Below, one piece after another: positions 5,199 through 40,843 of a stretch of 64,000 nucleotides of DNA. This DNA comes from Sinimarinibacterium arenosum. Lineage in GTDB: Bacteria > Pseudomonadota > Gammaproteobacteria > Nevskiales > Nevskiaceae. Location: the NCBI RefSeq assembly GCF_005047655.1, contig NZ_SUKF01000003.1, positions 124,001 to 188,000 of the forward strand, read 5' to 3'. The position numbers were made by a program, and so were the translations under genes. Position 1 is the stretch's first letter. The number at the start of each line of letters is the position of its first letter. The notes beneath the pieces are model-generated. The model saw only the letters and a program-made list of their open reading frames with translations. It did no database searches and was not told where the DNA came from.

Positions 5199-6494
5199 AT
5201 GGCCAATCTGTTTCAATCAGTTCGCGGCTTCAACGATGTTCTGCCGCCGGATACTGCAATCTGGCAGCACCTGCATCGGGTCGCCAACGAGACCTTTGCC
5301 GCCTACGGGTACGGCGAGATCCGGCTGCCGTTGCTCGAACATACCGCGCTGTTCTCGCGTTCGATCGGCGAAGTCACCGATATCGTCGAGAAGGAGATGT
5401 TCACGTTCCTGGATCGCGAAGGCGACAGCCTGACGCTGCGTCCTGAGGGAACCGCCTGTTGTGTGCGCGCAGGGCTTGAACATGGCTTGCTGCACAATCA
5501 GCAGCAGCGGCTGTGGTACGCCGGGCCGATGTTTCGCCATGAGCGTCCGCAGGCCGGGCGCTACCGCCAGTTTCATCAGCTCGGTGCCGAGGCTTATGGC
5601 ATGGTCGGGCCGGATATCGACCTGGAAGTCATCGCACTGTCGGCGCGGCTGCTGGCGCGTCTCGGCTTGCGCGATCTGACTCTGGAGCTGAATTCGCTGG
5701 GTTCGTCCGAGGCGCGTGCGGCGTATCGCAGCGCGCTCATCGATTTCCTGCAGCGTCACGAAAGCTCACTGGATGCGGACTCCAAACGGCGCATGCACAG
5801 CAATCCCTTGCGCGTGCTGGACTCCAAGTCGCCGCAGACTCAGGAGATCCTGCGTGATGCGCCGAAACTGATTGATGCTCTGGACCTTGAATCGCGTCTG
5901 CATTTCGAGCAGCTGCAGCAGGGCCTGAGTGATCTGGGCCTGCCGTTCCGCCTGAATTCGCGGCTGGTGCGCGGGCTGGACTATTACGGTCGTACCGTGT
6001 TCGAGTGGACTACAACGGCGCTGGGTGCTCAGGGCACCGTCTGCGCCGGCGGCCGCTATGACGGTCTGGTCACGCAGCTGGGTGGCAGTGCCACTCCGGC
6101 AGTGGGCTGGGCCTGCGGAATCGAACGACTGATCCTGCTGATGAAGGCGCAGGGCGTTGCGGTGCCGGATACCGCTCCGCATGTGTATTTGTGCTGGCTG
6201 GGCGATGCTGCGCAGCGTGAGGCGGCGCGCCTGGGCGAGCAGCTGCGCGATGCGCACCCCGGATTGCGCCTGGTCGTCAACGCCGGTGGTGGCAAGCTGG
6301 CCGCACAACTCAAGCGTGCCGACCGCAGCGGCGCGCGTGTTGCGCTGATTCTGGGGGATACGGAAATCGCGGCACGCACCATTCAAGTAAAATCGCTGCG
6401 AGACACCGATACCTCACCCGCATCGATCCCAGAACAGCAAATCCTGCCGTGGTCGGAACTGTCCGGCTATGTTGCGGGTCTGTTCGACGCATGA
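5199..6494 (+). CDS. hisS: histidyl-tRNA synthetase
   Basis: Class II aminoacyl-tRNA synthetase of 431 residues that charges tRNA-His in the cytosol. The N-terminus [12 protein letters not shown], the motif-2 region ([17 protein letters not shown]), the histidine-binding loop ([15 protein letters not shown]) and motif 3 ([11 protein letters not shown]) are all present. A C-terminal anticodon-binding domain ends the protein. The ATG follows the ispG stop with no spacer. Confidence 0.97.
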
Positions 6495-6516
6495 TTCCAA
6501 TACCAAGAGCGATCCA

Positions 6517-7158
6517 GTGACGACACACTACGACGACGAAGAACAAGCCGAACGCCTCAAGCAGTGGTGGAAGGAGAACTGGATTTCGCTGGCCGCTGGC
6601 CTGGTGATTGGTCTTGGAGCGATCTTTGGCTGGGAAGGCTGGAAGTCTTACCAGGGGACGCGTGCGGCAGAGGCCTCGCGGATGTACGAGGATCTGCGAC
6701 TGGCGCTGGGCGAGGCTCGGGGTCAGGATGCCGAAAAAATCGGCTCGGCCTTGATCCAGGATCACGGCAGCAGTCCCTATGCGTCCGGCGCCGCGCTCTA
6801 CCTGGCGACTGACGCGGTCAAGCGCGGTGAGCTCGATCAGGCCCTGACGCATCTGCAGTGGGTGCGGGAACACGGCAGTGATGATGGCGTCCGTGAAGTC
6901 GCTGCACTGCGGGCGGCGCGGGTGCTGTGGCAGCAGGGCAAGCCGGATGAGGCGCTGGCGCTGATTGCCGGCGACGGCGGGGAATTCCAGGCGATGGCGC
7001 AGGAGCTGCGCGGCGACATTCTGCTGTCTAAGGGCGATCGCAGTGCGGCGCGCGAGGCCTACCAGAAAGCATTGGGCGCGAGCGACGACGAAGATGTGGC
7101 GGCACGTGGTGATCTTCAGCGCAAGCTTGACGACCTCAACGATGTGGTGGAGTCATGA
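6517..7158 (+). CDS. yfgM: YfgM-family SecYEG-associated TPR protein
   Basis: Inner-membrane protein whose family partners with PpiD at the SecYEG translocon and helps trafficking of periplasmic chaperones. The charged cytosolic N-terminus (DDEEQAERLKQWWKENW) precedes one membrane helix (residues about 22-40), followed by periplasmic TPR-like helices. The length from the GTG at 6517 is 213 residues, normal for the family. An ATG at 6469 inside hisS would add 16 unlikely residues. The stop overlaps bamB by 4 nt. Confidence 0.88.
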   Translation: MTTHYDDEEQAERLKQWWKENWISLAAGLVIGLGAIFGWEGWKSYQGTRAAEASRMYEDLRLALGEARGQDAEKIGSALIQDHGSSPYASGAALYLATDAVKRGELDQALTHLQWVREHGSDDGVREVAALRAARVLWQQGKPDEALALIAGDGGEFQAMAQELRGDILLSKGDRSAAREAYQKALGASDDEDVAARGDLQRKLDDLNDVVES

Positions 7159-8306
7159 TGCGCCGCCTTCTGTTGGCGCTGCTCGCAGCGAGTGTTGTGA
7201 CGGCATGCTCAAAGGACAAGGTTCGCGAGCCTGCGGAACTGAAGGACATCGAGAATCCCGCACTCAAGTTCAAGACGGCGTGGAGCTCACACCCAGGTAA
7301 CGGCAGCGGCGACTACTATGGCGAGCTGGGCCTGACGCTGGCGGAAGATGCGCTATACGCCGCGGATGTGAAGGGCCGCGTATACGCGCTGGACCCGGTA
7401 AACGGCAAGACGACCTGGCGGGCGCAGACCGGCGAACGTGTGATTTCCGGTCCGACCGTGTCGGGTAACGCGGTTTTCGTGGGCTCGATGGATGGGCACG
7501 TGATCGCGCTCAAGCGTGCCGACGGCAGCGACTACTGGAAAACCAAAGTGTCCAGCGAAGTTCTGGCGCCGCCAGTCAGCGACGGCACCTTGACCATTGC
7601 ACGCGCGGGTGACGGCAAGATCTACGCGCTGTCGTCCGTCAGCGGCGCGCAGGTGTGGATGTTCGATCGCACGGTGCCGAACCTGACGCTGCGCGGGCTG
7701 GGACGTCCGGAAATCGTTGGCAGCCTGGCTTTCGTCGGCATGGACAACGGCCGCGTCGCCGCCGTGCGCATGGCTGACGGTCAGGCGCAGTGGGAGCAGT
7801 TGATCGCCGCGCCGACTGGACGTAACGAACTCGAGCGGTTGACCGACGTCGATGCGACGCTGCTGGTCGATGGCGGCGAGCTTTATGCGGCGAGCTTCGG
7901 AGGCGAGGTTGTGTGCCTCGACGGCGACACCGGACAGGTGCTGTGGCGTCGTTCGCTGCGCAGTTATACGGGCATGGCCCGGGTCAACGATCTGGTTGTT
8001 GTCACCGATGAATCCGGGGTGGTCTGGGGTCTGGACGCCCGCACCGGCGCCGCAGCGTGGAAGAACGAAGATCTGCTCTATCGCAAGCTGTCACCGCCCG
8101 CGGTGTTCGCCGACCATGTCGTTGTGGGGGATTTCGACGGCTATCTGCACTGGCTCGATCCCAAGGACGGCCGCATCGTTGCGCGCGGTCGTATCGGCAG
8201 TGACCCGATCCGCACCGCGCCGGTGGCCGGTCCGGACATGTTGTATGTGATGAATGTGGCCGGACGCATCAATGCGATCCAGCTGAAGCCGGCGCCGACG
8301 CGCTGA
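7155..8306 (+). CDS. bamB: outer membrane assembly lipoprotein BamB
   Basis: Lipoprotein subunit of the BAM complex that supports beta-barrel insertion into the outer membrane. It has 383 residues with a lipobox VVTAC near residue 18. An eight-bladed PQQ-like beta-propeller follows, seen as repeated phrases such as GRVYALDPVNGKTTW, GHVIALKRADGSDYW and GEVVCLDGDTGQVLW. Two ATGs in tandem (7155, 7158) are possible starts, the first overlapping the yfgM stop. A strong terminator follows at 8324. Confidence 0.95.
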   Translation: MMRRLLLALLAASVVTACSKDKVREPAELKDIENPALKFKTAWSSHPGNGSGDYYGELGLTLAEDALYAADVKGRVYALDPVNGKTTWRAQTGERVISGPTVSGNAVFVGSMDGHVIALKRADGSDYWKTKVSSEVLAPPVSDGTLTIARAGDGKIYALSSVSGAQVWMFDRTVPNLTLRGLGRPEIVGSLAFVGMDNGRVAAVRMADGQAQWEQLIAAPTGRNELERLTDVDATLLVDGGELYAASFGGEVVCLDGDTGQVLWRRSLRSYTGMARVNDLVVVTDESGVVWGLDARTGAAAWKNEDLLYRKLSPPAVFADHVVVGDFDGYLHWLDPKDGRIVARGRIGSDPIRTAPVAGPDMLYVMNVAGRINAIQLKPAPTR

Positions 8307-8457: not shown

Positions 8458-9870
8458 ATGACCGACATGACCGACAAGTTGCCTACGCTGGTGCTGGTCG
8501 GCCGACCCAATGTCGGCAAATCGACCCTGTTCAATCGCTTGACCGGGACTCGTGATGCGCTGGTCGCCGACTTCGCCGGGCTGACACGAGATCGTCAGTA
8601 CGGTACGGCCGAGTTCGAGGAGCGCGCGTTTGTCGTGGTCGATACCGGCGGTTTGATGCCGGAAAGCAAGGACCCGTTGGCGGCATTGGCAGAGGACCAG
8701 GCCGAACTGGCGCTGACCGAGGCCGATCATGTGCTGTTTCTGGTCGATGCCCAGTCCGGCAGTTTGCCGGCGGATGTCTCGATCGCGCGGCATCTGCGCA
8801 AGCTCAACAAGCCGGTCACTCTGGTCGTCAACAAGGCCGAGGGGCGCCCGCATGAGCTGGCCGCTGCCGACTTCCATTCGCTGGGTCTTGGCGAGCCGCT
8901 GACGATTTCTGCCGAGCACGGCAAGGGCGTCGAGTCGATGCTGCGCACGGTGCTGGCTGATCTGCCGGTCGTCGCTCCCGATGCCGGCGAGATGGACGAT
9001 GGCACTGCGCGCGTCGCGATCGTCGGTCGTCCCAACGTCGGCAAGTCGACGCTGGTCAATCGCCTGCTGGGTGAAGAGCGACTGCTGGCGGCAGACGTGC
9101 CGGGTACGACGCGCGACGCGATCGCGGTGCCGTTTGAATACGAAGGTCAGGCGTTCACCTTGATCGACACGGCTGGCGTGCGCCGGCGCGCCAAGGTCTG
9201 GGAAGCGGTCGAGAAATTCTCGATCGTCAAGACGCTGCAGGCCATCGAACGCGCGCATGTGGTGATCGCGGTCGTTGATGCACAGAACGATATCGGCGAG
9301 CAGGACGCGCGTCTGCTCGGACTGGTTGCCCAGCGTGGTCGCGCGATCGTGCTGGCGGTCAACAAATGGGATGGTCTGTCGCCGGAAGAGCGCGAACAGG
9401 TCAAATACCGCGTGAAGCTGAAATTCCCGTTTCTCGATTACGCGCCGGTGCGTTTCATTGCGGCCAAGCACGGCTCCGGACTGCGCGAACTGATGGATTC
9501 GGTGCAGGCGGCCTACGCCTCGACGATGCGCGAGCTGTCGACCGGCGAAGTCACGCGGGCGCTGGAGCAGGCGGTCGAAGCGCATCAGCCGCCGGCGGTA
9601 CTGGGGCGTCGCATCAAGCTGCGCTATGCGCATCAGGGCGGCAAAAATCCCCCGCGCATCGTGGTGCACGGCAACCAGACCGACAAGTTGCCGGCATCGT
9701 ACAAGCGCTATTTGAGCAACCAGTTCCGCGAAGCGTTCAAGCTGGTCGGCGTGCCACTGCTGCTGACCTTCAAGACCGGCGACAACCCGTTCAAGGATCG
9801 CAAGAACGAGCTGACACCACGCCAGATCAAGAAAAAGCGGCGCTTGATGGCACGGGTCAAATCACGCTGA
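8458..9870 (+). CDS. der: ribosome assembly GTPase Der (EngA)
   Basis: Essential GTPase with two tandem G domains that acts in 50S maturation. Two P-loops GRPNVGKST occur, at about residues 15-23 and again at about 188-196. Each G domain has its DTGG/DTAG and NKxD motifs (VVNKAEG in the first, AVNKWDG in the second), and a C-terminal KH-like domain follows (GRRIKLRYAHQGGKNPPRIV). The total is 470 residues. In the first domain the G4 motif reads NKAE rather than NKxD, a known variation in Der. ATG 8458 or ATG 8467 could be the start. Confidence 0.96.
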   Translation: MTDMTDKLPTLVLVGRPNVGKSTLFNRLTGTRDALVADFAGLTRDRQYGTAEFEERAFVVVDTGGLMPESKDPLAALAEDQAELALTEADHVLFLVDAQSGSLPADVSIARHLRKLNKPVTLVVNKAEGRPHELAAADFHSLGLGEPLTISAEHGKGVESMLRTVLADLPVVAPDAGEMDDGTARVAIVGRPNVGKSTLVNRLLGEERLLAADVPGTTRDAIAVPFEYEGQAFTLIDTAGVRRRAKVWEAVEKFSIVKTLQAIERAHVVIAVVDAQNDIGEQDARLLGLVAQRGRAIVLAVNKWDGLSPEEREQVKYRVKLKFPFLDYAPVRFIAAKHGSGLRELMDSVQAAYASTMRELSTGEVTRALEQAVEAHQPPAVLGRRIKLRYAHQGGKNPPRIVVHGNQTDKLPASYKRYLSNQFREAFKLVGVPLLLTFKTGDNPFKDRKNELTPRQIKKKRRLMARVKSR

Positions 9871-9922
9871 GTCCGCGCCGCAGACATTCGCGCGGAGCAG
9901 TGCCCGTGTTAGCGTTGTCTGC

Positions 9923-11884
9923 ATGAGTGAAGCAAATCCGGATACTGAACCCGCTGCAACCGCGGGAGTGCCGAGCCGCGTTGTTTTGATCTGTGATGAC
10001 CCTGACGAGCCGTTGCTTGAACAGGTTCGCAGCGCGGCTGTTGAGCGCGGCATCGATCTTCTGGAAGTAGACGCGGCTGCGCTGATCGACGCTCCCCAGC
10101 GTGCGAGCGATGTTTCCGACTGGATCGTCGTCGCCAGTGAAGGCAAATTGCCGCAGCTGGCCGATGCAGCCGTGCGGCAGCGGGCGAGGGTTGCGGTGAT
10201 TCCGCAGAAGGGTTCAGCCATCCCGCGTCTGCTGGACCTGCCCAAGGGTCTTGATGAGCGGCTGGAGCTGGCGTTCTCCAGTGACGTCATCGAGATCGAT
10301 GCCACGTACTGCAACGATGAGCTGGTGCTGGGCGTCGCCGCCATTGGGGATGTGCCGTTTCTCGATACCCGCGGCCGCGCGTTTGTGCGGGCGCAGTCGA
10401 GTCTGCGCGGTCGCTGGGCGGCTGCGGTCGGTGTATTTATCGGCACTGTGCGCCGTCTGTTTTCGATCCGGCCGACGCGGATCGGGTTGCAGATCGGCGA
10501 CGAGGAGAAGCCGCGGCGAACCGCTGTCACGGGCATCGTCGTTCTTGAAAACGACGCTGACCACCTGAGCGCGCAGTTGTTGGGCGAAGCGTCATCCGCA
10601 CGCAACGGCCGACTGTCCGCGATGCTGTTTGCGCCCGCATCGGTGGCGGCGTACATCGCCGCGCTGATCCGAGCGACCATTGGCGTCGGCAGCCTGCCGA
10701 GTGCGTTGTCGATGGTGCAGACGCGCAGTCTGCAGATCGAGTGCGACCAGCCGCTGCACTACCGGATTGATGGTCGTCCCCGCAGCGCAAAGCAGATTTT
10801 CTTTGAGGTGCGACCGCGTGCGCTGTCGGTCAAGGCGGGCGCCCGCTTCGGCGACGACAATCCGGAAGGGCAGAAGGATCGCGACACATTGCGACTCAAG
10901 ACGCTGCCGGAGAACGAGGCGCGCCTGGCCTCGATCAGCAGCCGCCTTCCGCTGTTTACGCATGCGCTCGAAGATGATTTCAAGGAGTTGTTCCAGCTGC
11001 TGCGGGAGAACGCCCGCGTCAGTCCGGACTTCGTCATTCTGATGCTGGCTTCGAGTCTGCTTGCCGGGTTCGGTCTGGTGATGAACAGTGCTGCGGTGAT
11101 CATCGGCGCCATGGTGCTGGCACCTTTGATGGCACCGATTGTTTCCCTGTCGATGGGCATTCTGCGACGCGATACGCGTCTGCTGCAGCAGGCTGGGCGG
11201 ACGATCGCCATCGGGGTCGCTCTGGCGCTGTCGGCCGCTGCGCTGCTGGCTTTGATTACGCCGCTTCAGCGCGTAACGGCTGAAATTGACGCGCGTCTGC
11301 ATCCGTCATTGCTGGATCTGGCGGTGGCGGTGATCTCGGGCATCGCAGCGGCGTATGCCTATGCGCGTGAAAGCGTGATCAAGAGTCTGCCGGGTGTCGC
11401 CATCGCCGTGGCGCTGGTGCCGCCGCTGGCCGTTGCCGGAATCGGCCTGGGCTGGGGCGATCTGCGGATTTTTGGCGGAGCCGCCTTGTTGTTTCTGACC
11501 AATCTGGTCGGTATCGCTGCTACTGCCGCTCTGACCTTCCTGGTACTGGGCTACGCCCCGATTCATACCGCGGTGCGCGGCTTGCGCGTCTTGGCCGTGG
11601 CGACGTTGCTGATGGCGCTGCCGCTGACGGTATCGTTTGCGCACATCGTGCAGGTCTGGCGCTATGAAAACGCGGTGGTATCGGACCCGGTGGCGATCGG
11701 GGCACGGGATCTGGAACTGACCGAAACCAGCGTGCGCGTCGATGGCGACACCGTTGTGGTGCGCGCCACAGTGGTGTCGGCGCAACCGCTGACTGCGCAA
11801 CAGGCGGATCACATCAAGCTGCAGCTGCAGCAGCGGCTCGACGCAAAGGTACGGGTTGAACTGCAGCAGCGCCTGGTGCGCTGA
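9923..11884 (+). CDS. DUF389/TIGR00341 membrane protein with DAGK-like N-terminus
   Basis: A 653-residue protein. The C-terminal half (residues about 345-570) is the DUF389 membrane domain. It carries the characteristic stretch from LEDDFKELFQLL through SSLLAGFGLVMNSAAVIIGAM and APLMAPIVSLSMGI, with about six or seven membrane helices. The first 320 residues are soluble. Their fold signature resembles lipid kinases of the diacylglycerol-kinase/LCB5 superfamily: a Rossmann-like start, then a late beta-rich part with LQIECDQPLHYRIDGRP and FEVRPRALSVKAG. I do not see the GGDGT catalytic motif, so kinase activity is unlikely. Function is unknown. It ends 7 nt from a convergent gene. Confidence 0.8.
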   Translation: MSEANPDTEPAATAGVPSRVVLICDDPDEPLLEQVRSAAVERGIDLLEVDAAALIDAPQRASDVSDWIVVASEGKLPQLADAAVRQRARVAVIPQKGSAIPRLLDLPKGLDERLELAFSSDVIEIDATYCNDELVLGVAAIGDVPFLDTRGRAFVRAQSSLRGRWAAAVGVFIGTVRRLFSIRPTRIGLQIGDEEKPRRTAVTGIVVLENDADHLSAQLLGEASSARNGRLSAMLFAPASVAAYIAALIRATIGVGSLPSALSMVQTRSLQIECDQPLHYRIDGRPRSAKQIFFEVRPRALSVKAGARFGDDNPEGQKDRDTLRLKTLPENEARLASISSRLPLFTHALEDDFKELFQLLRENARVSPDFVILMLASSLLAGFGLVMNSAAVIIGAMVLAPLMAPIVSLSMGILRRDTRLLQQAGRTIAIGVALALSAAALLALITPLQRVTAEIDARLHPSLLDLAVAVISGIAAAYAYARESVIKSLPGVAIAVALVPPLAVAGIGLGWGDLRIFGGAALLFLTNLVGIAATAALTFLVLGYAPIHTAVRGLRVLAVATLLMALPLTVSFAHIVQVWRYENAVVSDPVAIGARDLELTETSVRVDGDTVVVRATVVSAQPLTAQQADHIKLQLQQRLDAKVRVELQQRLVR

Positions 11885-16379: not shown

Positions 16380-16769
16380 CTATTTCTGCTCTGCCAGAAA
16401 ATCCAGCAAGTCCTTGCGTTCGGCGGTGTCGGCGATGCCGTCAAACTTCATCTTGCCTCCCGGAATGACAGCCTTGGGTTGGGTGACGTAGGCATCAATC
16501 CGGTCCGGGGTCCAGACAATGCCCGATGCCAGCAGCGCATCGGAGTAGTGAAAGCCGTCGATCTTGCCGGCGTTGCGCCCGGCCACGCCGAACAGACTCG
16601 GGCCTTTCTTGTTTTTCAGCGAACTGGCGACGCTGTGACACTCCGCGCAGTTTTCGTCGAAGACATCGGCGCCACGTTCGGCGTCGGCCAGAGCGGCCAA
16701 CGGTGCGGCCAGCACCGCTGCGAGCGTCAGCATGGTACGGGTCCGGCTCCAGTGTGAACGATGGCTCAT
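16380..16769 (-). CDS. small periplasmic class I cytochrome c
   Basis: A 129-residue protein with a signal peptide (residues 1 to about 29) and one heme site CAECH at 41-45. The distal methionine ligand is Met107 in PGGKMKFDG, giving the layout of a cytochrome c2/c-550-like soluble electron carrier. The start at 16769 overlaps the stop of the upstream fused cytochrome-porin gene by 4 nt, so the two are translationally coupled. The likely role is to carry electrons between the outer-membrane cytochrome-porin and the inner membrane (inference from the operon). Confidence 0.9.
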   Translation of the reverse strand: MSHRSHWSRTRTMLTLAAVLAAPLAALADAERGADVFDENCAECHSVASSLKNKKGPSLFGVAGRNAGKIDGFHYSDALLASGIVWTPDRIDAYVTQPKAVIPGGKMKFDGIADTAERKDLLDFLAEQK

Positions 16770-18106
16770 AGCGCGGCCCAGACGAATGCGAGCAGCGTGT
16801 TGTTGTCGGTCGCGCCGCGCCCGCTGCCATCGTAGTTGTCGGCACCGCCGGCATAGCGGTCGTAGCGAGTGAACTGCAGGCCGAGGCGCAGGTTCACGTT
16901 CGGCGCCATCCACGAGGATTCACTGCCGAACGGAGTGTAGTCGAGCTGCAGCGTTTCACCGCGGGTGTCCGGGCGGTTGCTGCTGCTGTCCGCATACAGG
17001 CCGGCGTCGGCGTCGCCGTTGGTGGCGAAGTAGCCGGCAGTGACGCCGTAGTGCTGGTGATAGTAATAAGCGGCGTTGAGGTTATAGCTGTTCAGGCTGA
17101 GGTTGGAGTGCTCGGCATCTCCCACGGCGCGACTGCCGGACAGCGATTGCGATTCATGCAGCGCCAACGCATTGACCGTGAATATGTTTCGACGGGTGCC
17201 CAGGTATTGATACGAGGCATCGACACCGACATCGCGGTAACGGTCAGTGCGGCCGGTGTCGTCGACTTCCAGATTCGATGACATGCCGACCATGCCGACG
17301 GACATCGACTGTGCATGCACATCACGCGTATACGCCAGGCGCAGATACGGCGAGATGCCCGAAGCTTTGACGATGTCTTCGGCCGGCACGCCGAGTGCAT
17401 CCAGCGTCGAGTGGCCGAGCGAGCGATAGCCGCCGAGTTCGGCGTACCAGCGGTCGTCGAAGAACGCAAAGGCATTGGCGCCGAGGACCTGCGTCTCGAG
17501 ACCGCCAGCCAGCAGCGGCGCGGCCGGTGCGCCTTCCGGCGCAAGATCCGAGCCCAGATACGGGAAGCCCCAGACCGGCAACGTGTTGAACGGATCCTGC
17601 ACGCCGGGGTTGTTGTTCAGCGAGAGGCCGGTGATCAGATCCTTGCCCTGGAACGTCAGTGGTCGCGCGTAGCGGACGTCGAGATTGTCCCAGGCGGCTT
17701 TGCGGTCGATGCCCGAATAGGTGACCTGGGCAAAGCTGCCGAGGTGATCGGTCAGGCCGCCGCCAAGGAATGCAGAGACTTCCTGGATTGCTGCATTGTC
17801 ATTGGTGTCGAAATGCTTGGCCGGGGCTTCGGACTGATCCTTTGCGGTCTGGGTGAACTGGCCGACCAGCATCGCGGACAGCGCGAGTGTGCGGTTGTCG
17901 CCGTCGGTGTAGCCCCCGAGCTTGAAACGCTGGCCGTAGGGCGTCAGCTGCGGACCGAAGCTGCCAATATGGCACGCGCCACAGTCCTGTCCGGTCTGGC
18001 GGGCGAATGAGGGTAGCGCGTGGGCCTGCAGGGCAGTCAGGGAGACGGCTGCAGCAAGCAAGTAGCGCAGCGCCCGACTGGCGGACCGGAATAACGGGAG
18101 GTTCAT
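16766..18106 (-). CDS. Cyc2-like fused cytochrome c-outer membrane porin
   Basis: A 446-residue protein. A signal peptide ends at AHA (residue 30), and the mature N-terminus LPSFARQTGQDCGACH holds one heme site at 42-46. This matches the PxFARQTGxxCxxCH pattern that characterises Cyc2, the monoheme cytochrome-porin fusion used by iron oxidisers to take electrons from outside the cell. The remaining 390 residues have alternating aromatic and polar strands (YAELGGYRSLGHSTLD, YNLNAAYYYHQHYGV, NLRLGLQFTRYDRY) and end with Leu (FVWAAL), as expected of a 16-strand beta-barrel. The ATG at 18106 has the Shine-Dalgarno GGAG 8-9 nt upstream; ATG 18127 is an alternative. Function in iron oxidation is not shown by sequence; Cyc2-like proteins also occur in other bacteria. 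Confidence 0.85.
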   Translation of the reverse strand: MNLPLFRSASRALRYLLAAAVSLTALQAHALPSFARQTGQDCGACHIGSFGPQLTPYGQRFKLGGYTDGDNRTLALSAMLVGQFTQTAKDQSEAPAKHFDTNDNAAIQEVSAFLGGGLTDHLGSFAQVTYSGIDRKAAWDNLDVRYARPLTFQGKDLITGLSLNNNPGVQDPFNTLPVWGFPYLGSDLAPEGAPAAPLLAGGLETQVLGANAFAFFDDRWYAELGGYRSLGHSTLDALGVPAEDIVKASGISPYLRLAYTRDVHAQSMSVGMVGMSSNLEVDDTGRTDRYRDVGVDASYQYLGTRRNIFTVNALALHESQSLSGSRAVGDAEHSNLSLNSYNLNAAYYYHQHYGVTAGYFATNGDADAGLYADSSSNRPDTRGETLQLDYTPFGSESSWMAPNVNLRLGLQFTRYDRYAGGADNYDGSGRGATDNNTLLAFVWAAL

Positions 18107-18119
18107 GCAAAAAGCTCCA

Positions 18120-18680
18120 TCAGACATCAGGGGTGAGCATTGGGGTGCTGCCGCGACGTCGCGGCGGCAGCATTTGCAGTAGGGTGTCGTCGCGTCGCAC
18201 GTAGTGGTGCCATAGCGCCGCAGCGGCGTGCAGGCCGATCGCTGCGAGCAGGGTCCAGGCGCCCCAGCTGTGCCACGTCACCAGCTGCTCCGAAAAATCG
18301 CGGTTACGCTCTATCAACGTCGGCAGGATCGGAGCACCGAATAGGGTGACTGTGGTTCCGTGGGCCTGCGTGGCGAGCACGCCGATCACCGGAAGTGCCA
18401 GCAGCAGGCCGTACATCAGACTGTGGGTCATCGCGGCGAACCGATGCGTGACCGTCACGCTGGGGTGCGCTTTCGGCGGATTGCGCCAGCGCACCAGAAA
18501 GCGGGTGACCGTACCGATCAGGATGACGAGGCCGAGTTGACGGTGAACGGTGAGCAGGTCGGTGCGCAGTGCGTGGCTTTCGATGACCTCGCGCAGCAGC
18601 GCGAGCGCCACCGTGCTCAGGACCGCAATCAATGTGACCCAATGCAGCCAGATGATCGGGCGTGCGTGACGTGTAGACAT
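18120..18680 (-). CDS. cytochrome b561 family protein
   Basis: A 186-residue four-helix inner-membrane di-heme cytochrome b. The candidate heme histidines are His13 (WLHW), His46 (TVHRQLG), His137 (TWHSWGAW) and His151 (IGLHAAAALWHH), at the expected helix positions. The family moves electrons between quinones and periplasmic partners. It is the first gene of the operon with the Cyc2-like porin (13-nt gap) and the small cytochrome c, and it would be the inner-membrane end of that chain. It is divergent from a two-component system with a shared control region. Confidence 0.9.
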   Translation of the reverse strand: MSTRHARPIIWLHWVTLIAVLSTVALALLREVIESHALRTDLLTVHRQLGLVILIGTVTRFLVRWRNPPKAHPSVTVTHRFAAMTHSLMYGLLLALPVIGVLATQAHGTTVTLFGAPILPTLIERNRDFSEQLVTWHSWGAWTLLAAIGLHAAAALWHHYVRRDDTLLQMLPPRRRGSTPMLTPDV

Positions 18681-18766: not shown

Positions 18767-18783
18767 CTTAAGAACTGCTTAAG
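18767..18783. promoter_or_regulatory. PmrA/QseB-type box CTTAAG-N5-CTTAAG
   Basis: Two CTTAAG half-sites at 18767-18772 and 18778-18783 are separated by exactly 5 nt, an 11-bp period. This is the direct-repeat architecture bound by PmrA/BasR- and QseB-type OmpR regulators. Because CTTAAG is palindromic, the site reads the same on both strands. It sits in the 126-nt region between the cytochrome operon and the response-regulator gene, 24 nt before the latter's ATG. A GATAAT lies 11 nt downstream on the plus strand, and a weaker GATAGA (18757-18752) lies 9 nt downstream on the minus strand. One box may serve both promoters. Confidence 0.72.
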
Positions 18784-18806: not shown

Positions 18807-19475
18807 ATGCGTGTACTGCTGGTCGAAGATGATCGATTACTGGGTGCTTCGCTTGTCGAAGCGCTGCGCCGTGAGCGTTACATCGTTGACTGGTGTCGGA
18901 CACTGGCGGATGCGCGCGTGGCAGTTGCCTCCACGCAATACAACATTGCTCTGATTGACCGCCAATTGCCCGATGGCGAGGGACTGGACCTGATCGATCT
19001 GCTGCGCGGTTCCGAGCTTCCGGTTGGTGTCCTGGTGCTGACTGCACGCGACGAGATCCAGCAGCGCGTGCAGGGGCTCGATCGGGGCGCCGATGACTAC
19101 ATGGTGAAACCGTTCGACCTGGATGAGCTGCTGGCGCGCATGCGTGCCGCTGCGCGCCGCTCGGCCGATCGCGGCCCGGGCGGGGTGCTGCGCGTCGGCG
19201 CGGTTCTGATCGATCCGGCGCGACGTACGGTGCAGCAGAATGGTGAACGGGTGGAACTGTCGCCGCGTGCGTTTGCGCTGCTGGTGACCTTGGCGCGTCA
19301 TCCCGGCCATGTCTTAACCCGCCGGCAGCTGGAGGAGGCGCTGTATCCGGCCGGCGACGAGGTCGAAAGCAATGCGGTAGAGGTTCATGTGCATCAGATC
19401 CGGCGCAAGCTTGGCGCCGAGATCGTCCGCACCGTACGCGGTCATGGCTACTGTATTGCCGATGATCCTGCCTAA
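18807..19475 (+). CDS. OmpR-family response regulator (QseB/PmrA-like)
   Basis: A 222-residue two-domain regulator. The receiver domain has its acidic pocket (VEDD), phospho-acceptor Asp51 and Lys101 (VKPFD). A winged-helix DNA-binding domain follows from about residue 125, ending EIVRTVRGHGYCI. It overlaps its kinase gene by 14 nt. The domain subtype agrees with the CTTAAG direct-repeat box just upstream, so autoregulation and control of the divergent cytochrome operon are likely (inference). Confidence 0.93.
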   Translation: MRVLLVEDDRLLGASLVEALRRERYIVDWCRTLADARVAVASTQYNIALIDRQLPDGEGLDLIDLLRGSELPVGVLVLTARDEIQQRVQGLDRGADDYMVKPFDLDELLARMRAAARRSADRGPGGVLRVGAVLIDPARRTVQQNGERVELSPRAFALLVTLARHPGHVLTRRQLEEALYPAGDEVESNAVEVHVHQIRRKLGAEIVRTVRGHGYCIADDPA

Positions 19476-20838
19476 GGCGTCTGTGTCATTGAGACAGCGA
19501 CTGCTGCAGCAGATCCTGCTGCCGCTTGCGCTGATCTGGCTGCTCAATGCGGTGCTGCTGCTGGGTGTGATCGTGCGCGAAAGCCGCGATGACATCGATC
19601 AGAATCTGAGGCTGACAGCACAGCTGCTAGAGGCGCTGGCACCCCAGGCGATCGATGCGACCGCAGGCGTCGCCGATATCGGTCCGAGTCTGCCGATGTC
19701 GGTGAGCTACCAGGTCTGGAGTGCTGACGGTCGCTTGCTGCTGCGCTCAGCCGATGCGCCGGAGACCCCCATTGGCGGATCCGATCCGCAGAGCATCGGT
19801 ACTGGCTTTGCCGACATCCGCATGGGTGATCGCGAGTGGCGCTGCTGGGCGAGCTGGAATGCCGGGCGCAGTCTGCAGCTGCGGATTGCGCAACCGCATT
19901 CGCATCAGATTGATGCGACCCTGGACATGGCACTGTCGCTGCTGCTGCCGGCGTCGCTGGCGTTGCCGTTACTGGCTTTGTTTGTCGGGGCGGTGGTAGA
20001 GCGCACCACCCGCAGCGTCTCCGGCGTCGCGCAGACCGTTGCCGAACGCTCTCGTGAGGATTTCTCGCCGGTTGATTCCAGTCAGCTTCCCGCGGAACTG
20101 GCGCCGCTGGTGGACGGATTCAACGCCCTGCTGGAACGCCTGGCCCAGGCGCTCGCGCGGGAACGGAGTTTTACCGATGGCGCCGCACATGAGCTGCGCA
20201 CGCCGCTGGCGGCGCTGCGGCTGGATGCGCAGGTCGGGTTGCGCAGCAGCGACGATCCGGCGATGCAGGCAGTGCTGCAGCGTGTGCTTGCCGCGGCACA
20301 GCGCTGCAGCATCGCGGTGGACGGGCTGATGACGTTGGCACGGATGGGGTCGCTGCGTGCGGGCGAGCAGCCGATCGAGCGTTTTGCGTTGTCGCGTATC
20401 GTCGACGAGACCGTGGCGGAGTTTCGACGTGCTGCGCAGCTGAAGGCGATCGGACTGAAACAGGATACCGACGCGGTGACGATCGAGGGCTATCCGGAAG
20501 CCGTCCATATCGTCCTGCGTAATCTGATCGACAATGCAATCCGGCATACGCCGGAGGGCGGGCACATCGGCGTCGCGCTGCATTTGGTCGATGGAGTGCT
20601 GCGGATCGAGGTCGAAGACGATGGCTGTGGAATTCCCCCGGAATCACGGCAGCGCGTGTTCGAGCGTTTCTGCCGTCTGACCGACGATGATCACGGCAGC
20701 GGGCTGGGGCTGTTCATTGTGCGCGGGTTAGCCGAATCGCTGGGCGGCACGGCGCGGATTGTCGAATCCCGTTATGCCAGCGGAACCCGTGTGCAGGTGG
20801 AATGGCCCGTGGTTGTCCGCACCGTGGCTCCGGGCTGA
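19462..20838 (+). CDS. sensor histidine kinase (QseC/PmrB-like)
   Basis: A 458-residue membrane kinase. A first membrane helix near residues 18-38 and a second near 155-175 frame a periplasmic sensor of about 115 residues with no recognised fold. The phospho-acceptor His243 lies in [18 protein letters not shown]. The ATP-binding domain shows the N box (LIDNAIRHTPEGG) and the G box (GLGLFIVRGL). Starting at the ATG at 19462 gives the usual short cytosolic lead. It is the partner of the preceding regulator. The signal is unknown, and redox state or metal would fit the neighbouring cytochromes. Confidence 0.92.
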   Translation: MILPKASVSLRQRLLQQILLPLALIWLLNAVLLLGVIVRESRDDIDQNLRLTAQLLEALAPQAIDATAGVADIGPSLPMSVSYQVWSADGRLLLRSADAPETPIGGSDPQSIGTGFADIRMGDREWRCWASWNAGRSLQLRIAQPHSHQIDATLDMALSLLLPASLALPLLALFVGAVVERTTRSVSGVAQTVAERSREDFSPVDSSQLPAELAPLVDGFNALLERLAQALARERSFTDGAAHELRTPLAALRLDAQVGLRSSDDPAMQAVLQRVLAAAQRCSIAVDGLMTLARMGSLRAGEQPIERFALSRIVDETVAEFRRAAQLKAIGLKQDTDAVTIEGYPEAVHIVLRNLIDNAIRHTPEGGHIGVALHLVDGVLRIEVEDDGCGIPPESRQRVFERFCRLTDDDHGSGLGLFIVRGLAESLGGTARIVESRYASGTRVQVEWPVVVRTVAPG

Positions 20839-33830: not shown

Positions 33831-34379
33831 ATGTCTGGTCAAATCAGAGCGATGCGCGGGGATCCTTTCGGGCAGCTGCTTGCGCTTGAGGAGCAGTTGC
33901 AGGCGTCGCGGGTCGACAGCGTCGCCGGTACCTCGCAGAACTGGATCGGGCTGGGGTTTCGTATCGGTGAGCGCTGGTTTGTCGCGCCGCGCGAGGATGT
34001 GCGCGAGGTGATTCCTCAGCCACCCAGCACGCACATCCCGAATGCGGCCAGCTGGCTGCGTGGGTTGGCGAATGTCCGCGGCGAACTGCTGGCCATCGTC
34101 GACCTTGCCGGCTTGCTCGGGCTGACGCCGTCCGAGACACACCGCGCTCAGCGGGTTCTAGTACTCAATTCACGCCGGATTCCGGCGGGGCTGCTGGTCG
34201 ACGAAGTCGCTGGCTACCGACAGTTCACCGTGGGGGAGCAGCGCAATGAACTGGTACGTGCGGCACAGCCATTCACGCCGTATCTGCTCGGTGCGTTTGT
34301 GCATGAGGGTCAGCCGTGGCTGGCGATGAGTCTGCACAAGGTCGCGCTGGGCGATGCATTCAGGACGGCAGCGCTATGA
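33831..34379 (+). CDS. pilI: CheW-like adaptor PilI
   Basis: A 182-residue protein with one CheW domain (residues about 40-175; GFRIGERWFVAPREDVREVI, LRGLANVRGELLAIVDL). It couples the PilJ receptor to the ChpA kinase. It follows pilG after 11 nt and overlaps chpA by 4 nt. pilH and pilJ, which are interleaved with pilI in Pseudomonas, are missing here and lie at 22.7-25.1 kb. Confidence 0.92.
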   Translation: MSGQIRAMRGDPFGQLLALEEQLQASRVDSVAGTSQNWIGLGFRIGERWFVAPREDVREVIPQPPSTHIPNAASWLRGLANVRGELLAIVDLAGLLGLTPSETHRAQRVLVLNSRRIPAGLLVDEVAGYRQFTVGEQRNELVRAAQPFTPYLLGAFVHEGQPWLAMSLHKVALGDAFRTAAL

Positions 34380-37300
34380 ACGCCCAGCCGCATACACAGA
34401 TGCTCACTGCCATTCACTGGGTTCGTGACGAGCTGGAGCGCGCCATCACGCGCGCCCGCGCCGCGATCGATCACTACGCCGAATATGGCGGTGACCCGCT
34501 GCAGCTGCAGCAGGCCCATCAGGAGCTGTCCCAGGTTCGAGGTAGCGCCACCCTGATTCGCTGTCACGGACTCGCCGCGGTCGCCAGCGAGATGGCGCAG
34601 GCGCTGACCGATCTGATTCAGGGTCGCATCTCAGAGCCAGAGCCCTTGTACTCGGCGCTGCTGGGGGCTTCGATCCAGCTGACTGACTACGTTCAGGCAC
34701 TGGCCGACGGCATGCCGGACTGCGTGCTGGTGATGCAACCGGCGATCAACGAACTGCGCCTTTCGCGCGGCCAGCCGGTGCTGACCGAAAGTGAGCTGTT
34801 CGTGGCGCAGATGCAGGCGACCGGCGCCACATTGACGCCGGAGGCGTCTGCGCCCGAGGGTGATTCGATCGAGTTGCTGGCGCGACGCTACCTGCCGGTA
34901 TTCGAGGCATCGCTGCTGTCATGGATCCGGGATGGCGTGGACGCGCAGACTTCTGCTGCCCGCGCCGGCAAGATTGCCGAACAGCTTGCGCAGCGCGCGA
35001 CGCTGGCGCCTGTCCATCAGTTGTGGCGGGTGGCCGCAGCGGCGATGGAGGCCTATCTGGCACGCGGTCTGGGCAGTGCGCTGGAGCTTAAACGCCTGTT
35101 CGGCCGGCTGTCGGCTCCGCTGAAGACACTGGCAGAATCAGGGGAGGCGGAAGCCGCTGCACGCAGCGGAGAGCTGTCGTTGCCGCTGCTGTTCATGGTG
35201 GGCCGATCGACGACTCGGGGCGCGCGTGTCAGCGCAATTCGGGCGCAGTTCGGTCTGGACGATCTGCTGCCGGAACAGGCACGCGTCGAACAGCTGCGGC
35301 GACGTATTCATGGCCCGAGTACCGCTTTGCTGGGCAAGGTGTCGGATGAGATCCGCGCTGATTTCAGCCGGATCAAGGATCAGATCGATCTGGCGGTCCG
35401 CACCGGCGGCCACGCCGATCTGACGGCAACGGTTGATGGACTGCGCCACGTGGCCGACATTCTCGGCGCCTTGGGCTTGAGTCAACTGCGTCAGATCGTC
35501 AGCCGTCAGGGCGAACTGCTGAAGGAATCGGCGCAGCGGCCGGCGGATCCGGCGTTGTGGATGGAATTGGCGACCTCGATCCTCCGTGTCGAAAGCAGCC
35601 TCGAAGGGGCGCTGTTCAGGCAGATGCATCGAGCCGATGCGATCGCCGGCACGGAAGATACCGTTTCGGATGCCATTCCCGAACCGCGCGATCTGGCACA
35701 GGGGCGCGAGGCCCTGTATCGCGAGTTTCTGGTCAACCTGGCGCGCATCAAGACGGCGTTGGACGCGTACTTCAAGCACGTCACTGACGAGATTCCAGCA
35801 CCCAATGCCTGGTTCAACGAGATTGCATCCGGGTTTGCCGTTCTTGATCAGGTCAGGGCTGCCGATCTGGTGCGCCGTCTGCAGAAGGTCATTGCGGGTG
35901 ACGCGATCGCGCGCTTGCGTGAACAGAGTGGGCCGGCTGAGCACTTCGCTGATGCCGTCGCCGCCATCGAGTACTACATCGAGGCCGCCCGCGCGGGAGC
36001 GCCCGGCGCTGATGCGATCCTGGATCGTCTGGATGTTGCGATTGATGCGGTGGAAGCCGTTCCGGCCGTGGAGATTGCGGATACATCGGTGGCCGATGTC
36101 ACCGAAACGGTTGTGGATGAGGCGACGACGATCGATGAGGCGCCGGCCGTTGAAGACGCCGCGGACTTGCCCGAACCCGCTGCGGAGCCAACACCCGCGC
36201 CGGCTGCAGTCATGGCCGCCGGCGACGATGATCCGGAGATTCGCGAAATCTTCCTTGAAGAGGCCGACGAGGTCCGCGCGACCTTGCAGTCTGCCTACGC
36301 GAAATGGCATCGCGACAACCGCGACAACGAAGCGCTGAGTGTCCTGCGTCGGGCGTTCCACACACTCAAGGGCAGCGGCCGTACCGTCGGTGCACAGGCG
36401 ATCGGCGAGTTCGGCTGGGCGCTGGAAAACCTGCTGAACAAGTGTCTTGATGGTTCGCTGCCGGTCAGCAGCGGCATCGTTGAAACGGTCGGCGCTGCGG
36501 TTTCCGTGTTGCCGTCGTTGATCGAGTCGTTCCGTCAGCGTGAGCCGGCGCCGGATGCTGCCGCCACCCTGGCGCAGCGAGCGACCGACTATGCCGAAGG
36601 GCGCAATCCCGACGCCGGCAGCGAACCGGATATTGCAGCGGTCTTCCGCGAGGACGCGACCGAAAAGCTGGCCACGGTGTTCAGCTGGCTTGATTCTGCC
36701 GCCTACAGTACGGATCTGGGGATCGATCGAGATGCGGTGCGTGCGTTCCACACGATCCGGGGCGCCGCGCGGGTGGTTGATGCGCACGCAGTCAGTGAGC
36801 TGGCGGCGGCGCTGGAAGCGTATCTGGATGCCTGCGATGTCGCAGGCTTGCGCCTGAGTGGCGAGAGCCTGGCCTGCGTCAGCGAAGCCACGGCCACCTT
36901 GCGTGACTGGATTGGCGACGTCGGGAACGGGGCTCCGCTGGCGCATGACGCGGCACCGTGGCTCGAGCGGATCGGCCGCCTGCAGTCGGATGTGCCTGAA
37001 GACGCGGTTCAGGTCAGTGCCGATCGGCAGCTTGCCGAGGTCTTCGCGGTCGAAGCCTTCGAGCTGGTCGACAAGATCGAATCCCAGCTGCGCGAATGGT
37101 CGCAGGCACCGAACAATCAGCGTGCGGCTGGCGAGCTGAAAGTGATTTGCCACACCCTGGCCGGCGCTGCGCTGATGTCGCAGTGTCCCGCCATCGGGGC
37201 GCCGGCGAAGGCGCTGCAGCGCCAGTTTGACGCCGCTGCCGCAGCGGCGATTGTGCCCTCACCCGAGCAGTTCAGCGTCCTGCTCGGATTTTGCGAGACG

Positions 37301-40300: not shown

Positions 40301-40843
40301 CAGATCAGCGCGATTCCGGGCATCAGCGGCGCCACAATTCTTGCGGATGGACGCGTCGTATTGATTCTTGACGTGCCGGCGCTGGTGCAGGATCACGCGC
40401 GCCGGATTCTGCGCATGCAGGCGGCACCGCAGGTGGCCGGGCCGGCGCAGGCCCCGGAAGAGGCGAAGCGCGAGCTGATCATGGTGGTCGACGATTCGAT
40501 CACGATCCGCCGCGTCACCGAGCGCCTGTTGCTCAAGCAGGGCTACGACGTGATCACTGCGAAGGACGGCCTCGATGCGATGGCGCAGCTACAGACCGAG
40601 CGTCCGCTGGCGATTCTGCTGGATATCGAGATGCCCCGTGCCAATGGGTTCGAGGTTGCGACTTTCGTGCGCAATACACCCGTGATCGCCAATACACCGA
40701 TCATCATGATCACCTCGCGATCGGGCGAGAAACATCGTGAACATGCCGCAGCGATTGGTGTTGAGCGTTATCTGATCAAGCCGTTCCAGGAAGATCAGCT
40801 GCTCGAACAGCTGCGTGAAGTGATTGCCGGAGCCGCTGCATGA
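34376..40843 (+). CDS. chpA: giant Hpt/CheA hybrid histidine kinase ChpA (PilL)
   Basis: A 2155-residue kinase of the twitching chemosensory system. Five clear histidine phosphotransfer domains have their histidines at residues 662 (HTLKGSGR), 792 (HTIRGAAR), 926 (HTLAGAAL), 1170 (HTLKGSAR) and 1389 (HTFKGGAR). A degenerate Hpt-like bundle opens the protein around His48. Ala/Glu/Pro-rich linkers separate the domains. The CheA core follows: dimerisation (VPVEALDKMLNEAGE), ATPase (LLRNAVIHGIESPQ, DDGRGLD, GRGVGMDVV), CheW-like domain, and a C-terminal receiver with Asp2083 (LLDIEMPRANG). The ATG at 34376 overlaps pilI. Confidence 0.95.
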   Translation: MNAQPHTQMLTAIHWVRDELERAITRARAAIDHYAEYGGDPLQLQQAHQELSQVRGSATLIRCHGLAAVASEMAQALTDLIQGRISEPEPLYSALLGASIQLTDYVQALADGMPDCVLVMQPAINELRLSRGQPVLTESELFVAQMQATGATLTPEASAPEGDSIELLARRYLPVFEASLLSWIRDGVDAQTSAARAGKIAEQLAQRATLAPVHQLWRVAAAAMEAYLARGLGSALELKRLFGRLSAPLKTLAESGEAEAAARSGELSLPLLFMVGRSTTRGARVSAIRAQFGLDDLLPEQARVEQLRRRIHGPSTALLGKVSDEIRADFSRIKDQIDLAVRTGGHADLTATVDGLRHVADILGALGLSQLRQIVSRQGELLKESAQRPADPALWMELATSILRVESSLEGALFRQMHRADAIAGTEDTVSDAIPEPRDLAQGREALYREFLVNLARIKTALDAYFKHVTDEIPAPNAWFNEIASGFAVLDQVRAADLVRRLQKVIAGDAIARLREQSGPAEHFADAVAAIEYYIEAARAGAPGADAILDRLDVAIDAVEAVPAVEIADTSVADVTETVVDEATTIDEAPAVEDAADLPEPAAEPTPAPAAVMAAGDDDPEIREIFLEEADEVRATLQSAYAKWHRDNRDNEALSVLRRAFHTLKGSGRTVGAQAIGEFGWALENLLNKCLDGSLPVSSGIVETVGAAVSVLPSLIESFRQREPAPDAAATLAQRATDYAEGRNPDAGSEPDIAAVFREDATEKLATVFSWLDSAAYSTDLGIDRDAVRAFHTIRGAARVVDAHAVSELAAALEAYLDACDVAGLRLSGESLACVSEATATLRDWIGDVGNGAPLAHDAAPWLERIGRLQSDVPEDAVQVSADRQLAEVFAVEAFELVDKIESQLREWSQAPNNQRAAGELKVICHTLAGAALMSQCPAIGAPAKALQRQFDAAAAAAIVPSPEQFSVLLGFCETLFQALDAYREGRHGDSGEQLTADIDALGWAARAAVVADNVVPASPAPEIADSVVQSLDQTEFELQSEANVAEPISGPDSGLVATESQIEPVEAPAQVAAAEDIIEMPPVAADDQSELESEAVAGLEQALDGDGVDVQSMSMDAAPLLADEPDAELLAIFQAECEELLEGLDQSTAAFERNPADVGALAEIKRLLHTLKGSARVSGLSTLGEVAHQLESLFEQAEAGTIPAQTQFFARVQNAVDGLHLALDDLKRGLIPDLSQLLEELAQPLASDQVVELPRSALEADIDTGSSAAVLTEVPDAELQAESLGSDAPIELVESIEMIEPVTEAGFGIPEPVATPAQERPPVSRPPAAAPVATSASGADALGLDEELVRTFAGEAEELMEELERALPRWQALPGDYTPARDLLRALHTFKGGARMAGLRAMGDAAHELESLIEGLEYAGELNVDALNVVAGAVSGLRRMTDRLERGDYAVLVTGEHEDEQEEASFEELQALADSESLPPGGARVVTVDEIVADDRAAETMPDVPTPFDATPIATWDPALFWRPDDAEAGLLQQRRETARVPVEALDKMLNEAGEISIYRSRLEEHNSGIEAQLDDLSQAISRVRDQLRQLDIETEAQIAARGLNQMESEREGAGEFDPLEMDRYTRMQELSRALSESVSDLSAVHASLDQLASEATTILLQQGRINTEVQQGLMRTLMVPFSRQIARLQRVVQQTSQENGKRVELVFDGAEAELDRNVLERMTAPLEHLLRNAVIHGIESPQQRDSVGKPATGRIAVSLWREGSQLLIELSDDGRGLDLQAIRQTAVRRGLMPEDVEIGDDEAAQYIFMPGFSTARALTQDAGRGVGMDVVASEVKQLGGTLELASEWGKGARFTVRLPLTLAISQSLLVGAGNESYAIPLPSITGITRFARDQLDALLADDSPGLDYGGHSYRLMHLADLVGVPRDSGTEQKTLHAILVRMPESFGGEQRRVAVVVDTLVGSREIVSKAVGPQISAIPGISGATILADGRVVLILDVPALVQDHARRILRMQAAPQVAGPAQAPEEAKRELIMVVDDSITIRRVTERLLLKQGYDVITAKDGLDAMAQLQTERPLAILLDIEMPRANGFEVATFVRNTPVIANTPIIMITSRSGEKHREHAAAIGVERYLIKPFQEDQLLEQLREVIAGAAA

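Follow-up and report, generated by a model that had tools for sequence, protein, structure and literature searches.

The window analysed here, a stretch of 64,000 nucleotides from contig NZ_SUKF01000003.1 (assembly GCF_005047655.1), carries five neighbouring genes that encode a cytochrome-porin, a cytochrome b561, a small cytochrome c and a two-component system. The features of this module are given below in window coordinates.

16380..16769, minus strand: small class I (mitochondrial/c550-type) cytochrome c, 129 amino acids (aa); PF00034, E=2e-9
16766..18127, minus strand: Cyc2-type cytochrome-porin, 453 aa, mature part about 416 aa; from alignments A1/A2, model and tree
17561..17617, minus strand: conserved porin loop NNNPGVQDPFNTLPVWGFP between strands 5 and 6; from the strand map of the model
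17969..17983, minus strand: CxxCH heme-binding motif of the porin, residues 49-53, with ALPSFARQTG ahead of it; direct reading
18120..18680, minus strand: cytochrome b561, 186 aa; PF01292, E=4e-22, 79.2 bits against a gathering cut-off of 30.1
18767..18783, no strand assigned: PmrA-box-type repeat CTTAAG-N5-CTTAAG in the promoter common to the regulator and b561 genes
18807..19475, plus strand: OmpR-type response regulator, PmrA/QseB-like; PF00072, PF00486
19444..20838, plus strand: sensor histidine kinase, QseC/PmrB-like, with a 2CSK_N sensor region; PF02518, PF00512, PF08521; start codon uncertain, the list of open reading frames (ORFs) starting it at 19387

The b561 stop codon overlaps the first start of the porin ORF, and in an ATGA the stop codon of the porin likewise overlaps the start of cytochrome c; these overlaps make it likely that the three genes form a single transcript. 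An initial annotation, made from the letters of the window, had proposed a three-gene operon at this place. All three genes were recovered there on the minus strand, and its reading of the mature porin start, LPSFARQTGQDCGACH, was reproduced, but it had overlooked the divergent two-component pair (18807-20838) and the box (18767-18783).

The cytochrome-porin as a Cyc2-family protein

By sequence and predicted structure, the window cytochrome-porin is a Cyc2-family protein, the identity that the initial annotation had suggested. An AxPxFARQT...CxxCH head is joined to a modelled 16-strand barrel, and a full-length alignment links the protein to the Cyc2 of a rus-type operon (locus L160 of the class sample below; 325 bits, model positions 1-419). 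The motif AxPxFAR[Q/K][T/Y] ahead of CxxCH is part of the Cyc2 definition (PMC8406198), and in the window porin it reads ALPSFARQTGQDCGACH by direct reading. The further criterion of a CxxCH in a protein of at least 365 aa corresponds here to one CxxCH in 453 aa. The C, C and H of this motif are invariant in alignments A1 and A2, and the N terminus resembles a signal peptide by eye. No match to the porin was found in Pfam, NCBIfam, PHROGs or PDB sequences.

An AlphaFold2 model calculated from 60 sequences (mean predicted local distance difference test score (pLDDT) 92.8, predicted template-modelling score (pTM) 0.89) has three short helices in the head (mature residues 2-33) and 16 strands. 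It thus has the fused 16-strand beta barrel of Cyc2, and porins are among its best folds; the lack of a barrel, named beforehand as grounds for dropping the assignment, was not what the model gave. The model fits the structural description of Cyc2 in PMC8406198, where OprP is named a structural homologue; OprP was absent among the fold rows shown (Foldseek top 50). VIA-align ranked 16-strand general porins at the top (OmpC, Z 22.6 over 300 residues at 3.6 A; OprB, Z 22.1 over 321 residues at 4.1 A). The top Foldseek rows were porins and other outer-membrane barrels, including AlgE, with low to middling query-normalised template-modelling (TM) scores (0.31-0.51 in the top 50); the OprO mutant 4rjx stood at rank 40 with TM 0.51. 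The long loop between strands 5 and 6, which we take to be the place of the porin constriction loop L3, carries a strongly conserved stretch, NNNPGVQDPFNTLPVWGFP in the window porin and NNAPGVGDLWQSTPIWGYP in the rus-operon Cyc2 L160. The strict L3 pattern was missing in the Thiomonas row L088 and in all three displayed rows of probable Clusters 1 and 3, and a looser pattern was missing in 7/97 rows of the window's clade and 5/24 basal rows. Two other identities were rejected: membership of the MtrAB/MtoAB/PCC type, in which a 26-strand porin is combined with a separate multiheme cytochrome (PMC8406198), because the window porin has 16 strands and one fused heme site; and an unrelated porin with a chance CxxCH, because of the full-length homology and the partners described below.

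The A2 profile was run (E <= 1e-5) against 369 genomes drawn evenly from the class. It matched in 52 of them, nearly full length in 27 (counted from the table), partially in 2 (a contig end and a fragment) and by the N-terminal part only in 23. Around the full-length match L160, an operon of the rus type includes genes for oxidase subunit I (PF00115), a CtaA-type protein (PF02628) and a rusticyanin-like protein, the last at 137 bits and so under the curated cut-off of 146.7. Similar rus operons are described for Acidithiobacillus, Acidiferrobacter and Acidihalobacter (PMC10654088). No cyc1 was seen at the L160 operon, and the 195-aa protein beside its Cyc2 had no Pfam match. Only one genome, G289, had a rusticyanin above the cut-off; it yielded no Cyc2 match, either in the class scan or on the two contigs examined.

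A quick tree was built from 138 unique rows out of 159 porin rows, after removal of fragments shorter than 340 aa and of ORFs in which no head could be recognised. It took in 16 of the N-terminal-only places, a part of those listed, as probable Cluster 1 and 3 groups, names given from their head motifs as compared with the text of PMC8406198. Twelve of these proteins have CHFQHFP-like heads and four have FARKY-like heads (34-58 bits against A2), and the two groups form separate branches (SH-aLRT, the Shimodaira-Hasegawa-like approximate likelihood ratio test, 99 and 100). The remaining 122 rows, including the window porin and L160, lie across a branch with SH-aLRT 99. The tree check proposed with the initial annotation therefore grouped the window porin with a rus-operon Cyc2, not with unrelated porins. 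The two small groups resemble the published Clusters 1 and 3, with the window porin probably on the Cluster 2 side. Within the larger part, the window porin belongs to a 43-row branch (SH-aLRT 89, below the 95 mark), in which 28 rows have an adjacent b561; where their titles give a group, these b561-bearing rows belong to beta- or gammaproteobacteria. Thiomonas rows fall in the same 97-row branch as the window porin, and Cyc2-like genes are reported from two Fe(II)-oxidising Thiomonas strains (PMC5566968), which need not be the strains in the tree.

The window porin shares with Cluster 1 (Mariprofundus Cyc2PV-1, Gallionellaceae) the head motif, the single CxxCH and the union of cytochrome and barrel (PMC8406198). 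Unlike it, the 12 probable Cluster 1 rows reach 43-58 bits with A2 and stand on their separate branch (SH-aLRT 99); their listed A2 stretches end by position 123, though with all domains counted 6/12 reach further, up to position 399. The likeness to Cluster 2 (A. ferrooxidans Cyc2, rus operon), seen via L160, comprises the full-length alignment, the head type and the L3-type loop, whereas the window module has no rusticyanin or cox genes but b561, a class I cytochrome c and a two-component system. A PxL motif sits 5 residues after CxxCH in the window porin and in 93/97 rows of its clade, against 3 residues in L160, our Cluster 2 stand-in, and in 22/24 basal rows; the spacing is 4 in 12/12 probable Cluster 1 rows and 3 in 4/4 probable Cluster 3 rows.

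Further Cyc2-like genes were observed in passing. Proteins of 252-261 aa with a Cyc2-like head (AEPAFAR[ML]Y...CNACHKDGGGTP) occur at L002, L018, L019 and L020, the first of these in the window genome (match at G000:C22:7192-7365). They seem too short for a head and a 16-strand barrel and adjoin a 474-490-aa protein with CxxCH motifs; seemingly, a relative of the Cyc2 head exists outside porins. On a plasmid of Acidithiobacillus ferrooxidans YQ-N3 (L201, 49686-51053), a c-type cytochrome gene comes after the gene of a full-length Cyc2-like protein that is annotated as hypothetical. This plasmid and the Acidiphilium cryptum JF-5 plasmid NC_009469 gave equal identity and E-value, which suggests near-identical copies common to an iron oxidiser and Acidiphilium. 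Uliginosibacterium gangwonense (L063) has two different Cyc2-like genes 1.8 kb apart (5848-7275 and 9078-10565), one with b561 and one from a basal branch.

Redox partners beside the porin and its relatives

In a GTDB scan (tblastn E<=1e-3), at least 582 of the 596 candidate stretches proved to code for a relative of the porin alignment, and the observation is therefore not a chance one; the idea that the module is peculiar to the window genome was rejected, since relatives with the module exist elsewhere. Partners were counted for 80 proteins from 79 of the 80 best named loci (L077 missing, L063 giving two proteins), these 80 being the best of at least 582 relatives. The census covers the same strand within 1.5 kb and, for two-component genes, a distance of 2.6 kb, so that farther neighbours and those on early-ending contigs escape it. 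A class I cytochrome c gene lies beside the porin in 50/80, and b561 in 26/80, every one of which also has the cytochrome c. A two-component gene was found in 26/80, and b561, cytochrome c and a two-component gene together in 17/80. Genes for azurin (7/80), HiPIP-like protein (5/80) and pseudoazurin (2/80) also adjoin the porin; one example of each was checked against Pfam, the HiPIP-like one falling 0.2 bit under the cut-off.

This census bears on whether the window protein might be an ordinary porin with an incidental structural heme and neighbours brought together by chance. Its nearest folds are porins and other outer-membrane barrels, and 18/80 relatives have none of the modelled partners. 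We nevertheless consider this explanation very improbable. Soluble redox partners are recurrent, b561 recurs in two gene orders (b561-porin-cytochrome c in 29 tree rows, porin-cytochrome c-b561 in 5 rows), the Cyc2 head and the L3-type loop are common to the rus-operon Cyc2, and the promoter box in its perfect form is unique in the genome.

The small cytochrome c has class I/mitochondrial-type cytochromes c as its best matches among PDB sequences and scored 89 bits against NCBIfam NF043008, under the cut-off of 240. For b561, the sole PDB match at E<=0.01 was E. coli cytochrome b561 (5oc0, E=1e-20). As expected of a prokaryotic cytochrome b561, the protein passes the PF01292 gathering cut-off and has the conserved histidines. 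In our own reading of the 5oc0 alignment, its H86 and H158 occupy the columns of E. coli H87 and H158, the quinone-site histidines of that protein (PMC11869295), and the two columns hold histidine in 30/31 (H86) and 31/31 (H158) module b561s.

The window b561 therefore resembles the E. coli superoxide oxidase in family, in similar length and in these histidines, but differs in being co-encoded with a cytochrome-porin and a cytochrome c and in scoring 85.7 bits against the CybB equivalog (NF008566), whose cut-off is 170. The resemblance raises the explanation of a periplasmic defence against redox stress, in which b561 would feed superoxide electrons to the quinone, the heme-porin and cytochrome c would scavenge Fe(II) or superoxide against Fenton chemistry, and the kinase would sense envelope stress. 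The retained quinone-site histidines and the PmrA/QseB-like regulator agree with such a role. We regard it as improbable: the CybB cut-off is not reached, the module apart from b561 consists of a Cyc2-type porin and an electron carrier, and 54/80 relatives are without b561.

The initial annotation had called b561 an unusual inner-membrane partner for a Cyc2-type protein. The pairing is indeed not described in the papers searched, but with b561 in 26/80 of the nearest named relatives it is no isolated case. On the tree, well-supported branches force at least 7 changes of the b561 label, as gains or losses. Four loci carry a NapC/NirT-type gene: in L051, L053 and L075 it lies on the opposite strand between the regulator genes and the porin (L075: PF03264, 223 bits), and in L047 it follows the cytochrome c gene and is cut by the contig end. 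The census count of 1 for NapC is same-strand only, with L051, L053 and L075 outside it. No b561 was detected at these four NapC-bearing loci, and the adjacency of a NapC-type gene there suggests that b561 and NapC/CymA-type proteins are alternative quinone links. Elsewhere, a cytochrome c prime gene follows the porin-cytochrome c pair in L130 (3166-3639, PF01322) and L131 (3443-3916), and a second small cytochrome c gene follows the pair in L132 and L133.

Promoter box, cassette and host metabolism in Solimonas

The two-component system resembles PmrAB/QseBC in domain make-up, in its best NCBIfam scores and in the PmrA-type direct repeat at its promoter, but falls under every equivalog cut-off. 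The response regulator scored 200 bits against PmrA (cut-off 330) and 192 against QseB (cut-off 345), and the histidine kinase 206 bits against QseC (NF007664, cut-off 475). Published PmrA boxes are a YTTAAK direct repeat in S. enterica and TTTAAG-N5-TTTAAG in A. baumannii (PMC10927774). In the window, CTTAAG-N5-CTTAAG at 18767-18783, a PmrA-type direct repeat at the putative target promoter that reads alike on both strands, is the sole YTTAAK-N5-YTTAAK match, with none in 100 shuffles. It is also the only copy of CTTAAG-N5-CTTAAG in the genome of 4,544,824 bases, so that, unlike in PmrAB/QseBC, the one perfect genome site stands beside a redox operon. One more degenerate site was observed at C1:354946-354962 (L203), possibly a second target of the regulator.

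Across 136 loci (1.31 Mb) the degenerate box gave 15 strand-wise matches in 10 loci, while the same half-sites at twelve other spacers between 0 and 12 gave 8 matches in total and at most 2 each. In all 10 loci the site lies within about 0.4 kb of a porin-module gene, although some nearness is expected because the scanned loci were centred on porins. The box stands between regulator and b561 in the window, in G006 and in G007/S. variicoloris (L037 and L038 being one strain), and between regulator and porin in a Thiobacillus metagenome-assembled genome (L065). It was found upstream of b561 in L039, of the regulator in L049 and of the porin in L080 and L157, and between porin and cytochrome c in L086. 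In G010, the fourth carrier in Solimonas, a rescan of the true gap gave no more than a 10-of-12 match; the upstream box scoring used over-long regulator ORFs in places. Together with the divergent gene arrangement, the box would fit a dedicated local regulator. A single orthologous two-component system throughout the relatives was not supported. The regulators beside them form several separate groups, with those of Solimonas as a group of their own (quick trees, long-branch warnings).

Eleven genomes of the genus were compared. The window genome shares its genus with G007, whose module regulators are identical to those of S. variicoloris DSM 15731, and so probably comes from a Solimonas species. 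The porin is present in 4/11 (the window genome G000, G006, G007 and G010) and pckA in 11/11. In five (G001, G002, G003, G005 and G009; 5/11) a FAH-family gene directly follows pckA; in the window (PF01557), G006 and G007 (3/11) the five-gene module lies between the two genes, and in G010 it starts about 5 kb from pckA. Neither a FAH-family gene within 1.5 kb of pckA nor the module was found in G004 and G008. The module acts as a cassette in Solimonas, its regulators coming and going with the electron-transfer genes in these genomes. Identities between the window and L022 and L023 were also recorded: histidine kinase 35-38%, b561 46-49%, regulator 61-67%, porin 64-67% and pckA 82-85%. Within Solimonas the kinase and b561 are the more diverged, as if the sensed signal differed between species.

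The initial annotation had described the host as an ordinary heterotroph, a description that is incomplete and that the following genes do not support.

C1:187151-191315 of the window genome (L193, L197): RuBisCO large- and small-subunit genes, a divergent LysR-type gene and a phosphoribulokinase-family gene

The large subunit scored 773 bits against a cut-off of 438, the small-subunit gene is also present, and the phosphoribulokinase-family gene lies 2.6 kb beyond the large-subunit match. Four PF00115 matches were found in the window genome; one belongs to the nitric oxide reductase B type (PF22085), and a second is a match to COX1 that lies by eye in a cbb3-type cluster. RuBisCO occurs in 4/11 genus genomes, two of them also with the module.

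Of the other remarks made on the window, that on pckA was right (PF01293, 530 bits), a MacB-type protein is encoded at 58117-60087 in line with a mention of MacAB, and a 2175-aa Hpt/CheA-type hybrid kinase (34316-40843) agrees with a remark on twitching. An 889-aa subtilase-family protein with a weak S-layer-homology match is encoded at 43799-46468.

Direction of electron flow and significance of the module

We propose, at what we judge an even chance, that the module is a Cyc2-type conduit under regulation which probably oxidises Fe(II) or a similar reductant; cytochrome c would be its hub and b561 its quinone link. The five genes would form a self-contained module for extracellular electron transfer. 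The Cyc2-type protein, with its 16-strand barrel and single-heme N-terminal head, is predicted to lie in the outer membrane. By analogy with Cyc2 precedents, Fe(II) or another small soluble reductant would enter the pore and pass an electron to the head heme, from which the co-encoded mitochondrial-type cytochrome c would carry it to the host's cytochrome oxidases. With its conserved histidines, b561 would couple cytochrome c to the quinone pool, a role in keeping with the NapC/CymA-type genes at loci with no detected b561. The module's own PmrAB/QseBC-like system, divergently arranged around one promoter box, would switch it on. Whereas gene order, family, modelled fold, box and partners were observed, the outer-membrane location, heme attachment, electron path and substrate are predictions.

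The opposite direction has to be weighed. The module may instead dispose of electrons: b561 (or a NapC-type protein) would oxidise quinol, cytochrome c would hand the electrons to the Cyc2-type heme, and an extracellular acceptor such as chelated Fe(III), Mn(IV) or O2 would receive them. The main argument for outward flow is that b561 or NapC partners adjoin the cytochrome-porin. NapC/CymA proteins are usually quinol dehydrogenases, which counts for disposal, and transfer from quinol to cytochrome c is the downhill direction. Against this, the carriers beside the relatives (azurin, HiPIP-like protein, class I cytochrome c) are of kinds usually on the oxidase side, and no extracellular multiheme partner is visible in the module of the window. 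Moreover, the three biochemically tested Cyc2 proteins that PMC8406198 discusses are Fe(II) oxidases, and the +208 mV given there for Cyc2PV-1 leaves few acceptors. We therefore think outward flow unlikely, though less so than redox-stress defence. The kinship with Cyc2 and the soluble partners, which are of high-potential kinds, lead us to favour inward flow, with electrons coming from Fe(II) or a comparable reductant; the b561/NapC link may be reversible.

Several observations weigh against the proposed Fe(II)-oxidising conduit. Electron transfer from a high-potential cytochrome c to ubiquinone is uphill, and b561 may for this reason run the opposite way, from quinol to cytochrome c. The link to Cluster 2 rests on the rus-operon context of L160 in a tree without a named, experimentally tested Cyc2, and the PxL spacing is 5, not the 4 of the Cyc2 definition. 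Among the relatives counted, 54/80 are without b561 and 18/80 have none of the modelled partners, and these 80, as the best of at least 582 relatives, are biased in favour of the window's type; in the evenly drawn class sample, b561 accompanies 2/27 full-length loci and cytochrome c 6/27 (about 1.5 kb each side). Most relatives are without the box (126/136 loci). A co-occurrence of RuBisCO and module in Solimonas is unsupported, since each is found in 4/11 genomes and only 2 have both. In the literature, ascribing iron oxidation to the Cyc2s of Cluster 2 requires a context that supports it (PMC10734462), much of Clusters 2 and 3 is unverified (PMC8406198), and cyc2 expression alone is no marker of iron oxidation (PMC12442390).

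The Cyc2 family itself is known, but the module of b561 or NapC and regulator appears undescribed in the searched literature. No paper was found that joins Cyc2, b561 and a two-component system, or a cytochrome-porin and b561, in a search outside of which most subscription journals and preprints lay; the sole b561 passage of the PMC5566968 excerpt concerns a fused b561/diheme protein beside an mto operon. By description, the irc cluster of Sideroxydans (ircABCD) is similar in combining an inner-membrane b-type cytochrome with small periplasmic cytochromes c, and it rises with iron oxidation (PMC12442390). It differs from the window module in having no predicted porin (PMC10734462) and in including a diheme cytochrome and a hypothetical protein.

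More broadly, and tentatively, at somewhat under an even chance, we suggest a distinct Cyc2 branch that is quinone-linked through a small cytochrome c to an interchangeable b561 or NapC/CymA-type protein and that in Solimonas has become a stand-alone cassette with its own two-component system. It would act as a reversible single-heme gate in bacteria other than dedicated iron oxidisers and would serve, as the need arises, to oxidise Fe(II) opportunistically, to balance the redox state or to export electrons. Cyc2 homologues are well known in bacteria not known as iron oxidisers (PMC5566968, PMC8406198), the role of many Cluster 2 members in such bacteria is an open question (PMC8406198, PMC10734462, PMC5566968), and cyc2 has served as a marker of iron oxidisers (PMC10734462). 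With this module, such proteins gain a recurring partner in the inner membrane, along with a regulator and a promoter box. It also advises caution in two directions: a Cyc2 carrier is not automatically a lithoautotroph, nor should it be called an ordinary heterotroph before RuBisCO has been checked. The type strain Solimonas variicoloris DSM 15731 has a close form of the module, which makes inducer, substrate and flow direction directly testable. If the quinone-linked Cyc2 branch is real, it would provide a gate for extracellular electrons in bacteria beyond the dedicated iron oxidisers.

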